Positions 41,636 to 51,431 of a stretch of DNA of 64,000 nt are shown piece after piece. Position numbers and translations under genes: made by a program. The stretch comes from Synechococcus sp. UW69 (GTDB lineage Bacteria > Cyanobacteriota > Cyanobacteriia > PCC-6307 > Cyanobiaceae), in NCBI RefSeq assembly GCF_900474185.1, contig NZ_UCNW01000009.1, positions 248,001-312,000 on the forward strand. Direction: 5' to 3'. Below the pieces are notes generated by a model. The model had not been told where the DNA came from and did not search any database. It saw only the letters and a list, made by a program, of their open reading frames with translations. Position 1 is the first letter of the stretch; each line of letters starts with the position of its first letter.

Positions 41636-42742
41636 GTGTCCCTGTTTCAGAACCTCCGTCGGCGTTTCACTGCCACCCCTGTGATGCAGGACTGGCCTGG
41701 ACTGATTGAGGCCTATCGCAGCTGGCTTCCCGTCACCGATGCAACCCCGGTGATCACCCTTCGGGAGGGAGCCACTCCTCTGATTCCCGTGCCATCGATT
41801 GCGGAACAGATCGGCAAGGGCGTGAAAGTGTTCGTGAAATACGACGGCCTGAATCCCACAGGGTCCTTCAAGGACCGGGGCATGACCATGGCCATCAGCA
41901 AAGCCAAGGAAGCCGGTTGTGAAGCGGTGATCTGTGCAAGCACAGGCAACACCAGTGCAGCAGCAGCGGCCTATGCCCGGCGGGGAGGAATGCGGGCCTT
42001 CGTGTTGATCCCTGATGGCTATGTCGCCCAGGGAAAACTGGCTCAAGCTCTGGTGTATGGCGCTGAGGTCTTAGCGATCCGCGGCAACTTCGATCGTGCC
42101 CTGGACATCGTTCGGGAAGCGGCGGAGAAGTATCCGGTCACCCTGGTGAACTCGGTGAACCCCTACCGGCTTCAGGGCCAAAAGACGGCTGCTTTCGAAA
42201 TCGTGGATGCCCTCGGAGACGCACCCGACTGGCTTTGCATTCCCATGGGCAACGCGGGAAATATCACCGCCTATTGGATGGGTTTTCAGGAATATCAGCA
42301 GGCGGGCCGTAGCCGGAACCTGCCCCGGATGATGGGCTTCCAGGCCAGCGGATCAGCTCCTCTGGTGAACAACACGACGGTGACGGACCCCGAAACCATC
42401 GCCACAGCCATCCGCATCGGCAACCCAGTCAACCGAGCCAAGGCCCTGGCGGCACGCGAAGCCAGCAAAGGAGCGTTCCTGGATGTCACCGATGCGGAAA
42501 TCATCGAGGCTTACAAACTCTTGGGCGGTCAGGAGGGAATCTTCTGCGAACCCGCCAGTGCTGCATCTGTGGCAGGCCTGCTCAAACGCAAGGATGAAGT
42601 ACCAGCTGGCTCAACGGTGGTCTGCGTTCTGACCGGCAACGGCCTCAAGGATCCCGACTGCGCCATCAGCAACAACGACGCCGCCTTCCACACCGACCTC
42701 AATCCCGATCTCGACACCGTTGCCAATGTCATGGGCTTCTAA
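41636..42742 (+). CDS. thrC: Threonine synthase
   Basis: 368 residues from GTG. PLP-dependent conversion of O-phosphohomoserine to threonine. The PLP lysine is Lys79 in [11 protein letters not shown]; the phosphate-binding loop [15 protein letters not shown] and [11 protein letters not shown] are intact. It is the shorter bacterial class without the N-terminal extension of plant enzymes. It ends directly before the putative replication origin, with an intrinsic terminator 25 bases later. Confidence 0.96.
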
Positions 42743-42766
42743 AACGGCATTCCATCGACGTCCTCC

Positions 42767-42788
42767 AGCCCCCCAACGGGGGCTTTTT
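42767..42788 (+). terminator. Rho-independent terminator after thrC
   Basis: Stem AGCCCCC/GGGGGCT with a short CAAC loop, followed by a T-run. It separates thrC transcription from the origin region. Confidence 0.88.
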
Positions 42789-43175
42789 CATGGCCATTGG
42801 AGAAAACCAGCCGACAAAGCGGCTGCAGAAAACAAGCAAAAACCGAATGCACACGCTGTGGAAAACAGGTGAAAACAACTCCTCCGACCAAGTGGATGGT
42901 TTTCCACCTGCTGTGAAGACGTGGAAAACAGGTCTGCACTCCCCATTCCGTAAAAAATTCTCCTCAAGCATTGGTGAAGCAGAACTCTCTTGACCACTGA
43001 CTTTCAAGCAGCTTTCCCCCTTTTCCCCAGGCCCTACTACGACTGTTTTATTTTTATTTTTTTAAATCCATAAGAACAAAACAGCCGAAAAGAGGATCCC
43101 GTTGCGCTGGCCATTGCACTTCCCCTCAGCCTGTGAAACGGTGGGGCACCTCAGCGCACTCAGGTCGTCAGGACG
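42789..43175. other. Putative chromosomal replication origin (oriC)
   Basis: No gene is seen in these 387 bases between thrC and dnaN. Three DnaA-box-like nonamers are visible: TTTTCCACA (complement, 42857-42865), TTTTCCACC (42900-42908) and TTTTCCACG (complement, 42920-42928). Weaker copies are TTTTCACC (complement, 42868-42875) and TTTTCCCC (43021-43028). An A/T-only tract of 22 bases (43046-43067) is a candidate unwinding element. dnaN follows at once. By eye the plus strand shifts from C/A-rich to G/T-rich here. Cyanobacterial origins are known to lie beside dnaN and to use TTTTCCACA boxes. Confidence 0.75.
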
Positions 43176-44333
43176 ATGAAGGTGGTCTGTTCACAGTCCG
43201 AACTGAATAGCGCCTTGCAATTGGTGAGCCGTGCGGTGGCAACCCGGCCCACCCACCCGGTTCTGGCCAATGTGTTGCTTACGGCCGATGCTGGAAGCAA
43301 TCGCCTCAGCCTGACGGGATTCGATCTGAGTCTGGGGATTCAGACCTCTCTCGCCGCCAGTGTGGAAACCAGTGGAGCGATCACGCTTCCGGCCCGATTG
43401 CTGGGAGAGATTGTCTCCCGTTTATCCAGCGATTCTCCGGTCACTCTCGCGGTAGAAGATGCCGGCGAGCAGGTTCAGCTCACCAGCCTGAGTGGGAGCT
43501 ATCAGATGCGCGGTATGAGTGCTGATGACTACCCCGATCTCCCGATGGTGGAGAGCGGCATGACGCTCAAACTTCAGCCTGAACGGTTGGTGCAGGCGCT
43601 CAAGGGCACCCTGTTCGCGAGCAGCGGCGATGAAGCGAAGCAACTGCTCACCGGTGTTCATTTGAAGTTCAACCAGCGGGCTCTAGAAGCTGCTGCCACC
43701 GATGGACACCGCCTTGCTGTACTCAATGTTGACGACGCTCTGCAGGATGCGGCCATCGCTGATGCCGTTGATGAACAGGGTTTCGCGGTGACCCTCCCCG
43801 CACGTTCTCTTCGAGAGGTCGAGCGTTTGATGGCGTCCTGGCGTTCCGATGAACCCGTCAGTTTGTTTTGTGATCGTGGCCAAGTGGTGTTTCTCGCTGC
43901 CGACCAGATGGTCACCAGTCGCACGCTGGAGGGCACCTATCCCAATTACGGCCAGTTGATTCCCGATGGATTCACCCGCACGTTCGGGATGGATCGTCGT
44001 TCATTGATTGCTGCTCTGGAACGCATTGCTGTTCTTGCTGATCAACACAACAACGTCGTGAAATTCAGCAGTCAGCCTGAGGAGGGTGTTGTGTTGATCA
44101 GTGCTGATGCACAGGATGTGGGCAGCGGCTCCGAGTCACTACCAGCCAGCCTTGATGGTGATGCCATGCAGATTGCTTTCAATGTTCGCTATTTGCTGGA
44201 TGGTCTCAAAGCCATGGGCTCTGATCGGATTGTTCTGCACTGCAATGCACCCACCACGCCGGCTGTGCTTCGTTCCGATGAAACGTCTGAAGCTTTCACG
44301 TATCTGGTAATGCCCGTTCAGATTCGTTCCTGA
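43176..44333 (+). CDS. dnaN: DNA polymerase III subunit beta (sliding clamp)
   Basis: 385 residues from ATG. The three-domain clamp fold is complete. Typical pieces are MKVVCSQSELNSALQLVSRAV at the N-terminus, QMRGMSADDYPDLP, LLTGVHLKF, and the C-terminal YLVMPVQIR, which forms part of the hydrophobic pocket for clamp-binding peptides. It loads polymerase III on DNA, and in many bacteria and cyanobacteria marks the origin. A PRC-barrel gene follows after one base. Confidence 0.97.
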   Translation: MKVVCSQSELNSALQLVSRAVATRPTHPVLANVLLTADAGSNRLSLTGFDLSLGIQTSLAASVETSGAITLPARLLGEIVSRLSSDSPVTLAVEDAGEQVQLTSLSGSYQMRGMSADDYPDLPMVESGMTLKLQPERLVQALKGTLFASSGDEAKQLLTGVHLKFNQRALEAAATDGHRLAVLNVDDALQDAAIADAVDEQGFAVTLPARSLREVERLMASWRSDEPVSLFCDRGQVVFLAADQMVTSRTLEGTYPNYGQLIPDGFTRTFGMDRRSLIAALERIAVLADQHNNVVKFSSQPEEGVVLISADAQDVGSGSESLPASLDGDAMQIAFNVRYLLDGLKAMGSDRIVLHCNAPTTPAVLRSDETSEAFTYLVMPVQIRS

Positions 44334-44334
44334 T

Positions 44335-45093
44335 GTGTCTCTTCCGGATCAGCTTCTCCTCAGTGATCTTCTGAGTCATACCGTCCGCTGTGATCTGGGC
44401 TTGGATCACGGACCTGGGGTGATGGCTTGGATGCATCCGCCCGTGCATCGGTTGCTGGGTTGGGTCAGCCGACCGTCAGCTCTGCGTATGTCTCGCGATG
44501 TGTGGCGTTTGAACCAATGTTGTGGTTTTACGGATCAGCAGGTGTTTGTGCGCGGCGAACCGGCGGTCACCGATCAGGTGATGCTGGAACGCTTGCCGAC
44601 GTTGATGGAGGCAACGTTGCTTGATCGTGATGGTGAGCGAATTGGCAGCGTTGTTGATCTTGATTTCCGACCAGCGGACGGCGCGATTCTTCACTATCTG
44701 ATCGCCCGCAGCGACCCGCGACTTCCAGGGAGTTCCCGCTGGCGTTTGGCTCCGGATCGCATCCTTGACCAGCAACCGGGTCAGATTCAAACCGCCCTGA
44801 TGGGATTGGATGATTTGCCGATGGCCCGCGCCAGTGTCCGTCAAGACCTGCTCCAACGCACCCAACGTTGGCGGGACCAGTTGCGCGTCATGGGTGATCG
44901 GGCTGGCGATCGCCTGGAGGGTTGGTTGGAGGACTCACCAATGGATGATCTGCGGCCAGAGCCCATCCGCTCTTCGCTAGGGGACGTCGAATCAGAGCCC
45001 GTCTCTGAGCGTGAATCTGAGGTCTGGGACGACGACAGCTGGGAGGAAACTCCGTCCCCCCGCCGCCGACAGGACGAAGACCCCTGGGTCTGA
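44335..45093 (+). CDS. PRC-barrel domain protein
   Basis: 252 residues from GTG 44335, 1 base after the dnaN stop. The first part ([37 protein letters not shown]) looks like a degenerate PRC repeat. A clearer PRC barrel follows at about residues 88-145 ([25 protein letters not shown]). The C-terminal ~80 residues are charged and probably unstructured ([17 protein letters not shown]). PRC barrels occur in photosynthetic reaction centre H subunits and RimM, usually as protein- or RNA-contacting modules. This gene sits between dnaN and purL; its role is unknown. Its 3' end may overlap upstream codons of a longer purL frame. Confidence 0.8.
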
Positions 45094-48962: not shown

Positions 48963-51431
48963 TCAGCTGTTCAGTTGAATTGTGTTGATCACTTCAACGA
49001 TTGTTTCACCATTCTGAAGAGAAGTTTGTTGGCTTAATCTTTCCCCTGGTTGTGTGATGTTGATGTCGTCCGGATCCATGCGCCCGTGACGCTCTTTGCT
49101 TGTCCGCACTCCCATGAGTCCGGTTTGATCGCTGATCCCGACAAGACGATCAGATTCGGTGTCAATCTCAACGGCCATGCTGCCGAGATCGCCGCGTTGG
49201 TTGTATCGCAGGCCTGAGCAATCGACACGGCTGATCCACCCTTGTTGGCTGATCAGCATGAGTGGTGTCTGTTCTGCGCAGACAGCTCCGATGATCTGTT
49301 CCCCTGGCAGCAATCGCATGGTCATGGGTCCCTGTGCCAATCGACCCATCAATGGAAGGGAGTCCTCGGTGACGCGCAGACGCAAGAGCCGACCGATGTC
49401 GCTGATCAGAACCAGTGTTCCCTGGTCGCGGCAGATCACAGCAGTGTTGAGCTCGACGCCTTCCTTCAATTTGAGAACGCTTGTGGCTCGACCGGAAAGG
49501 TCCACGACCTCGCTCAGAGGAATTCGTTTGAAGCGACCATCGCTGCTGAGTAAGCCCAGACTGTGATCATCTGTGTTTTGGTGGGGCAGCGACAGAAGGG
49601 AGACGATGCGGTCTCCATCAAGGCCGGTGGGCAGGAAACGCCCGATCTGACCAGGCTGTTGTCCGGCAAATTCCCAGCGCACTTGAGCAATGCGGCCGCC
49701 GGCACTCACCGCCAGCAGTCTCGGTGGGGGTTCGATCGGCAGGATCACCTGTGCCGGAGACGGTGCGTCGCCAATTGGGCAAGGATCATTGAGATGGAGG
49801 CGGCCCAGCACCTGAGGGGTGACGATTTTTACTTGTCCATCGGCTTGGATCAGCACCCGACCATCCCCAGGCAATGCGGATAGGGCCTGCTGACGCAGGA
49901 GTTCTGTATTCGGCCGTTGGCTGGCTGCCCGTTCGGCCATCAGTGCATCGCCACCTTCCACGAGTCGGGTTCGACGGGGGGTGCTGAAGCGCTTCTTCAA
50001 CCCCTTGAGTTCCGTCACCATCGCGTCCAGCAATTGATCCCGGTTGTCGAGCAGCAACTTGAGGCGTTGACGTTCCGCCCGCAGTTCATCCAGCTCCTGT
50101 CGCAGGCTTTCCTGCTCGAGTCCCGTCAGGCGCCTGAGGGGCATGGCCAACACTGCATCCGCCTGTCGTTCGCTGAGGTCGAGCCGCACCATCAAGCTCG
50201 CGCGGGCCGATGCAGCGTCATTGGCCTCTTGAATCATGGCGATCACGGCCTGAAGATTGTTCAGGGCCGTGATCAGTCCTTCTACGACGTCAAGCCTGTC
50301 TTCTGTCTTGCGGAGCGCATGACTGGTGCGTCTAATCAGGGTCAGTTCCCTGAAATCGAGAAAGGTCTGCAGCAGTTGGCGTAAGGAAAGCTGCTGGGGT
50401 TGTCCATCAACAAGGGCCAGCAGGATGGCTCCGAAGTTGCTCTGCAGAGCCGTTCGTCGTTGCAGATCCTTCAAAACCTTGTCTGGATCCGCATCACGGC
50501 GCAGTTCCACCACAACGCGCATGCCTTCCCGGTCGCTTTCGTCACGGATATCGGCGATTCCACCGATCTTTCCGTCGTTGACGGACTCGGCCAGCTTTTC
50601 AATCCAGCCGGCCTTGCTGAGCTGGTATGGCAATTCCGTGACGACAACGGCATTGCGCTTGTGGCGCCCCTTGCCGGGTTGCACTTCTTCGATGTGGGCG
50701 ACGCCTCGCATCGGGATACTGCCGCGTCCACGCAAATAGGTGTCCTGTAGCCCCGAGCTGATCAGCACTTCACCGCCGGTTGGAAAGTCCGGCCCTGGGA
50801 TCAGTTCCAGAAGTTTCTCGTCACTCACTTCCGGCTTCCGGATCAGGGTGATCAGACCATCCACCACTTCTCCCAGATTGTGTGGCGGAATGCTGGTGGC
50901 CATGCCGACGGCGATGCCAGAGCAGCCGTTCAGCAGCAGGAAGGGGAGCTGGGCAGGCAGAACGGTGGGTTCCTGTTGGGATCCATCGAAGTTCGGCGCA
51001 AAATCAACCGTGTCTTCACCGATCTCCTCAAGCATCGCCTGGTGGGAGATGGGCGCCAGGCGGGTTTCGGTGTACCGCATCGCCGCCGGTGGGTCGTCGT
51101 CCACCGAGCCGAAATTGCCGTGGCCGTCCAGCAGTGGGTGACGGCTGGAGAAGGTCTGAACAAGCCGCACCAGGGCGTCGTAAACCGCCTGATCACCGTG
51201 GGGGTGGTACTTGCCCAGCACGTCACCAACGACCCTCGCGCATTTGCGGTAAGGACGGTCTGGGGTGAGCCCCAGTTCCTGCATCGCGTAGAGGATGCGT
51301 CGTTGGACGGGCTTGAGACCATCGCGGGCATCGGGCAACGCCCGACCCACGATCACGCTCATCGCGTATTCGAGGTAGGAGCGCTGCATCTCCTGATGCA
51401 GAGCGATCGGTTGAACGCGCTCCTCAGCCAT
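48963..51431 (-). CDS. Type IIA topoisomerase subunit A (GyrA/ParC)
   Basis: 822 residues from ATG. The catalytic tyrosine is Tyr120 in [10 protein letters not shown], equivalent to E. coli GyrA Tyr122; the [13 protein letters not shown] helix and [16 protein letters not shown] are canonical. The C-terminal six-bladed domain begins around residue 520. The GyrA box QRRGGKG, expected at the start of that domain, is absent; the nearest feature is YNQRGDLG near residue 740. The protein may therefore be a ParC-type (decatenating) paralogue or a divergent GyrA. It is convergent with purF, 3 bases apart. Confidence 0.92.

Follow-up and report, generated by a model that had tools for sequence, protein, structure and literature searches.

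This report concerns a window of 64,000 nucleotides from Synechococcus sp. UW69 (C9:248001–312000, contig NZ_UCNW01000009.1; the genome, G000, comprises 2.37 Mb in 15 contigs) and, within it, the intergenic gap of 433 bp that separates thrC from dnaN and adjoins the latter. A chromosomal origin had been proposed between these two genes from the letters of the window (the original prediction). Extremes of strand skew inside the gap, clustering of DnaA boxes and conserved flanking genes support this placement. The features of the locus are as follows.

41636–42742, + strand: thrC (threonine synthase), the left neighbour (TIGR00260, 332.7 bits against a cut-off of 167.1)
42767–42787, + strand: G+C hairpin followed by T5, a probable thrC terminator, as read from the sequence
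42824–42832, − strand: weak DnaA box TTTTCTGCA with two mismatches, lying in a block that the alignment shows to be conserved
42857–42865, − strand: exact DnaA box TTTTCCACA (nonamer scan), in a conserved block
42900–42908, + strand: DnaA box TTTTCCACC (nonamer scan)
42920–42928, − strand: DnaA box TTTTCCACG (nonamer scan), in a conserved block
43012–43020, + strand: degenerate upstream partner box CTTTCCCCC with 6/9 matches, abutting the following box (comparative partner scan)
43021–43029, + strand: DnaA box TTTTCCCCA, assigned to a basal unwinding system (BUS; nonamer scan and conservation in the alignment)
43030–43033, + strand: G+C spacer GGCC between this box and the trios, as seen in the sequence
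43034–43045, − strand: four DnaA-trios (CTA CTA CGA CTG on the + strand, hence 3'-GAT GAT GCT GAC-5'), trio 3 being cytosine-centred
43046–43067, no strand assigned: A/T-only tract, by its sequence a probable unwinding element beside the trios
43176–44333, + strand: dnaN (DNA polymerase III sliding clamp; TIGR00663, 328.3 bits against a cut-off of 137.65)

Both neighbours named in the original prediction are confirmed by these profiles, and the order thrC–gap–dnaN is maintained in 42/42 relatives (30 from the genus, 12 from the family), with gaps of 356–494 bp. The three nonamers proposed at 42857, 42900 and 42920 were all located by the nonamer scan, and the A/T-only tract lies exactly where it had been reported. 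Among the weaker box copies said to lie nearby, TTTTCCCCA at 43021 is present, but the role of the core at 43012–43045 had been missed. The proposed gene-free core of 387 bases holds insofar as no open reading frame (ORF) of at least 100 aa lies between thrC and dnaN; its length fits no boundary, the gap being 433 bp. A search of the window against Rfam gave zero matches.

The core of the gap reads TTTTCCCCA-GGCC-CTACTACGACTG, i.e. a DnaA box and, after a 4-nt spacer, DnaA-trios that lead into the A/T tract. The tract had been treated apart from the trios, whereas it is their direct continuation. In the published description, a BUS consists of box, spacer and trios, and the DnaA of S. elongatus opened its own BUS in vitro in a reaction that needed boxes and trios (PMC8287927). 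Judged by its sequence, the region 43021–43045 together with the A/T tract is such a basal unwinding system, a natural variant of the known one. In 94/94 taxa the 40 nt beyond the trios exceed both flanks in A/T content, and a partner box with at least 6/9 matches is found 8–9 bp upstream of the BUS box in 73/94 taxa.

The best-conserved 15-mers of the gap start at 43022–43026 and the most conserved block spans 43021–43045 (42 aligned relatives). CTACNAC is present in the gap of 42/42 relatives. A strict motif occurs at one place in the genome of the window, from which the motif was built, and its reversed control nowhere. A looser but still strict one, TTYCCNCANNNNYTACKACNACK, was found in 128/400 family and 159/291 class genomes, compared with 3 and 3 for the reversed control (the samples overlap). 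It disallows CGG trios and misses many true cases; 28/34 genus rows are without a match, although the alignment shows the block. Some motif hits are located away from dnaN (in G106 the hit is at C1:1869 and dnaN at 3,080,768). Probable chance matches in unrelated sequence include the nearly identical TTCCCTCA-CGACTACTACAACG hits of G260, G323 and G403. Among 20 dnaN upstream regions sampled from the class, CTA CTA CTA in a fixed frame is clear in 9; in the remaining regions the template either settled on the tandem box immediately upstream or found nothing.

Additionally, two blocks at 43108–43150, between the A/T tract and dnaN, are strongly kept in the genus (CCATTGCACTTC and CTGTGAAACGGTGGGGCACCT). 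They may represent the promoter of dnaN or additional DnaA sites.

Skew was followed over 630 of the 637 kb of contig C9, and other contigs were sampled (C8, eight stretches). GC skew changes sign between the bins 285–290 kb and 290–295 kb (C9:90001–490000). Within C9:200–370 kb, the cumulative GC-skew minimum (window position 43131) and the AT-skew maximum (42984) are both inside the gap. Some cyanobacteria are reported to replicate without DnaA and to have an irregular skew (PMC7198777); the clear switch at the gap argues for DnaA dependence, short of proof. DnaA boxes are clustered in the gap as well, where four matches start within 200 bp, compared with two at the next-best spots (83 hits in the 400 kb scanned, C9:90001–490000). 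Both checks suggested with the original prediction, the skew (followed on contig C9) and box clustering above background, thus point to the gap, which has the densest box cluster of the 400 kb.

The middle bases of the trios were compared in 96 dnaN upstream regions (29 from the genus, 67 others), 94 of which were used. Trios were placed at fixed spacing from their outer letters only, so that the middle bases cannot bias the placement; the picker demands C as the first trio letter, which by itself accounts for part of the constancy seen at that base. On the + strand, the middle bases of the 94 taxa are T (199), G (166), C (6) and A (5), corresponding to A, C, G and T on the strand that DnaA would capture. 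Parsimony on the dnaN tree gave 30 T↔G changes, one T↔C, no T↔A, four G↔A and three G↔C, compared with 118, 279, 97, 85 and 373 in 56 four-fold degenerate dnaN columns. Read on the latter strand, there are 30 A↔C and 8 other changes, the control having 118 and 834 (94 Cyanobiaceae). For T↔G versus T↔C plus T↔A, trio middles differ from four-fold sites with a Fisher p of 7.5e-17.

Since several changes in the same column depend on one another, single columns were compared as well. The T↔G share is 11/13 in trio 2, 5/8 in trio 3 and 14/16 in trio 4; trio 1 has a single middle-base change, which is not T↔G. A share of 0.8 is reached by 3/216 control columns of dnaN and 0/140 of the gap. Random triples of control columns reached the 29/36 of trios 2–4 in 1/100000 draws for dnaN and 0/100000 for the gap. 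With alignment-based placement instead, trios 2–4 show 30 T↔G and 5 other changes. A run of three adenine-centred trios within the set of four is retained by 0/29 genus members and 12/94 taxa.

Single-strand selection by DnaA is known mainly from B. subtilis. The C-terminal domain of DnaA (PF08299) has one match in the genome of the window (95 bits), in an ORF of 464 aa; the gene is on a different contig (C8:333318, − strand). Residues N187, I190, I193, R202 and E228 of B. subtilis DnaA (chain 8btg) correspond to identical N201, I204, I207, R216 and E242, and these five base-contacting residues are kept in 51/51 cyanobacterial loci (41 read with one regular expression, the other 10 with a looser one). 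B. subtilis DnaA is described as capturing two bases per trio, with Asn187 contacting the amino group of the middle adenine (PMC10721633). In the same source, strand separation with a central cytosine had a rate similar to that with adenine, and G, T and U gave lower rates; cytosine can largely take the place of the adenine by virtue of the amino group common to the two. Furthermore, B. subtilis strains with cytosine-centred trios grew faster and initiated more frequently than those with G- or T-centred ones (PMC10721633).

In the following scheme, the location, neighbouring genes, skew switch, conservation, trio phase and A/C-only drift come from the present data, and DnaA binding, opening and the amine contact are carried over from other bacteria. 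DnaA would bind the upstream boxes at 42857, 42900 and 42920 and the tandem boxes at 43012/43021. From 43021 the oligomer would grow across the 4-nt spacer onto the trios at 43034–43045, where it would capture the first two bases of every trio on the minus strand. The A/T tract at 43046–43067 would thereby be opened for helicase loading. The middles of trios 2–4 may move between A and C because DnaA reads the amino group common to both. An Asn187-type amine contact would then constrain the trio middles in Cyanobiaceae.

Taken together, the thrC–dnaN gap is interpreted, with a probability of about 0.85, as a DnaA-dependent chromosome origin that is opened via its trios and whose A/C middles result from amine reading. 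The wider proposition is held somewhat less firmly: Cyanobiaceae mix A- and C-centred trios and, probably, asparagine reads only the amine of the middle base, so that G+C-rich origins drift from A to C and not along the commoner path from A to G.

Several observations weigh against this interpretation. The BUS box has one mismatch and the partner box three relative to TTTTCCACA, and only 1/4 trios in the window is cytosine-centred. Two regions (L241, L247) were dropped as their trios were not findable. As picked, 8/94 taxa carry a middle base that is neither A nor C (two of them visibly misplaced), and trio 3 alone is not extreme (5/8 A↔C; 11/216 dnaN columns reach 0.6). The T/G pattern had been seen in the genus before the test was designed; the sample outside the genus is therefore the fairer test. 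There, 20 A↔C changes stand against 7 others (61 and 550 in the control); leaving out L221 and L245, which are misplaced, gives 19 and 4. The genus alone gives 8:1. Nonamers with at most one mismatch occur 14 times in the window, with a chance mean of 12.25 and at least 14 in 41/100 shuffles, and the exact nonamer occurs 12 times genome-wide compared with 14 for the reversed control. Because these counts are chance-like, only clustering is kept as evidence. Finally, the lowest GC-skew minimum of the contig is elsewhere, at C9:490–510 kb, about 200 kb from the gap. The segment C9:393.4–492.9 kb matches 197.6–80.5 kb of the complete congener G003 in reversed orientation, with forward matches on both sides (160 kb of G003). 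The deeper minimum is attributed to the far end of this ~100-kb segment, inverted relative to G003, and it disappears once the segment is turned back. The inversion may be a true rearrangement or a scaffolding or assembly error.

The gap could also be an origin in which the A/C drift reflects double-stranded recognition, the amino groups (A N6, C N4) or the opposite keto groups being read in the major groove. The comparative data fix the allowed bases and not the strandedness, which leaves room for this explanation. Single-strand capture agrees with the published structure and with the position and phase beside the box and the A/T tract (PMC10721633, PMC8287927), and double-stranded reading is considered unlikely.

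A purely mutational origin of the drift, in which the pressure of a G+C-rich genome turns T into G on this strand while the base itself is under no selection, draws on the rise of C-centred trios with dnaN third-position G+C (Spearman 0.48, p 7.8e-7, uncorrected for kinship). That rise is also consistent with G+C pressure acting along the sole path left open by amine reading. Against unselected drift, the same strand has T↔C 279 and T↔G 118 at four-fold dnaN sites but 1 and 30 at the trio middles, and other gap columns have an average T↔G share of 0.18; this explanation is very improbable.

That the gap is a dnaN promoter or regulatory region with DnaA boxes and the origin lies elsewhere could appeal to the conserved block at 43130–43150 near dnaN, to a conserved box cluster on contig C2 or to the deeper skew minimum, but is hardly credible given the skew extremes inside the gap, a skew of −0.03 to +0.06 without clear switch around the C2 cluster, the position of that cluster roughly opposite dnaN in complete congeners, and the location of the deeper minimum at the edge of an inverted segment.

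Origins next to dnaN are well documented, and this is the ordinary location in cyanobacteria; dnaN is reported on one side of the origin in 55/68 of them (PMC4674748). The gap resembles the dnaN-linked oriC of Synechococcus elongatus PCC 7942 and Cyanothece ATCC 51142 in being dnaN-adjacent, and differs by a single exact TTTTCCACA box, by TTTTCCCCA at the trios and by dnaA on another contig. BUS elements are likewise widespread (85% of 2070 species, PMC8287927). In the arrangement of its elements, from the box over a short G+C spacer and the trios to the A/T tract, and in the strand that is read, the locus agrees with the B. subtilis and S. elongatus BUS, and the base-contacting DnaA residues of B. 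subtilis are conserved here. In contrast to the adenine-centred trios of the published rule (at least three consecutive 3'-NAN-5' within 16 nt of a box), trio 3 is cytosine-centred, and trios 1–4 give a run of two. Six NAN triplets in the A/T tract, in another phase and with a spacer of 15, formally satisfy the rule, and a survey based on it might still report a BUS at this place; accordingly, no claim is made that earlier surveys missed this origin.

The change from A to C is the same, and at the same position, as in engineered B. subtilis trios (PMC10721633). Those were made in the laboratory, whereas the Cyanobiaceae trios are natural, recur in many species and are mixed with A-centred ones. 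For other DnaA proteins, tolerance of varied sequences is only considered as a possibility in that source (PMC10721633). No description of natural cytosine-centred trios under A/C-only drift was present among the open-access matches listed, subscription papers and supplements being outside the search. If amine reading is true, the trios would be natural evidence from multiple lineages that DnaA selects a single strand by one functional group. Natural origins that swap A and C, and seldom other bases, are ready native substrates for an in vitro test of the rule. The data suggest that origin finders should allow 3'-N[A/C]N-5' trios. For a marine Synechococcus origin, the probable opening site is narrowed to about 30 bp.

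A second DnaA-box cluster is found at C2:42140–42420 (L001:1501–1790), with TTTTCCACA (+), TTTTCCACG (+) and TGTGGAAAA-GC-TGTGTATAA (−). DNA similarity to it is present in 12/34 genus genomes, G000 included, and the boxes are well kept. In the complete congeners G003, G008, G029 and G033 the cluster lies at 55–57% of the chromosome circle counted from dnaN, close to where the terminus is expected; in G001 the value is 41%. The cluster may serve to titrate DnaA or as a regulatory site.

A blastn search for inverted repeats at the two ends of the inverted C9 segment found none. Low-G+C stretches are present at both ends, and one tRNA-Gly at the left end.

To the right of dnaN, an unassigned ORF is followed by purL, purF and gyrA-like genes. 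The ORF (44335–45093, 252 aa) occupies the interval between dnaN and purL and has no NCBIfam match at E 0.001. The gyrA-like topoisomerase gene near the origin (48963–51431, − strand) fails the GyrA cut-offs and passes that of the broader topoisomerase subfamily. DnaN is 95–96% identical to its closest named relatives, which are marine Synechococcus isolates and metagenome-assembled genomes.
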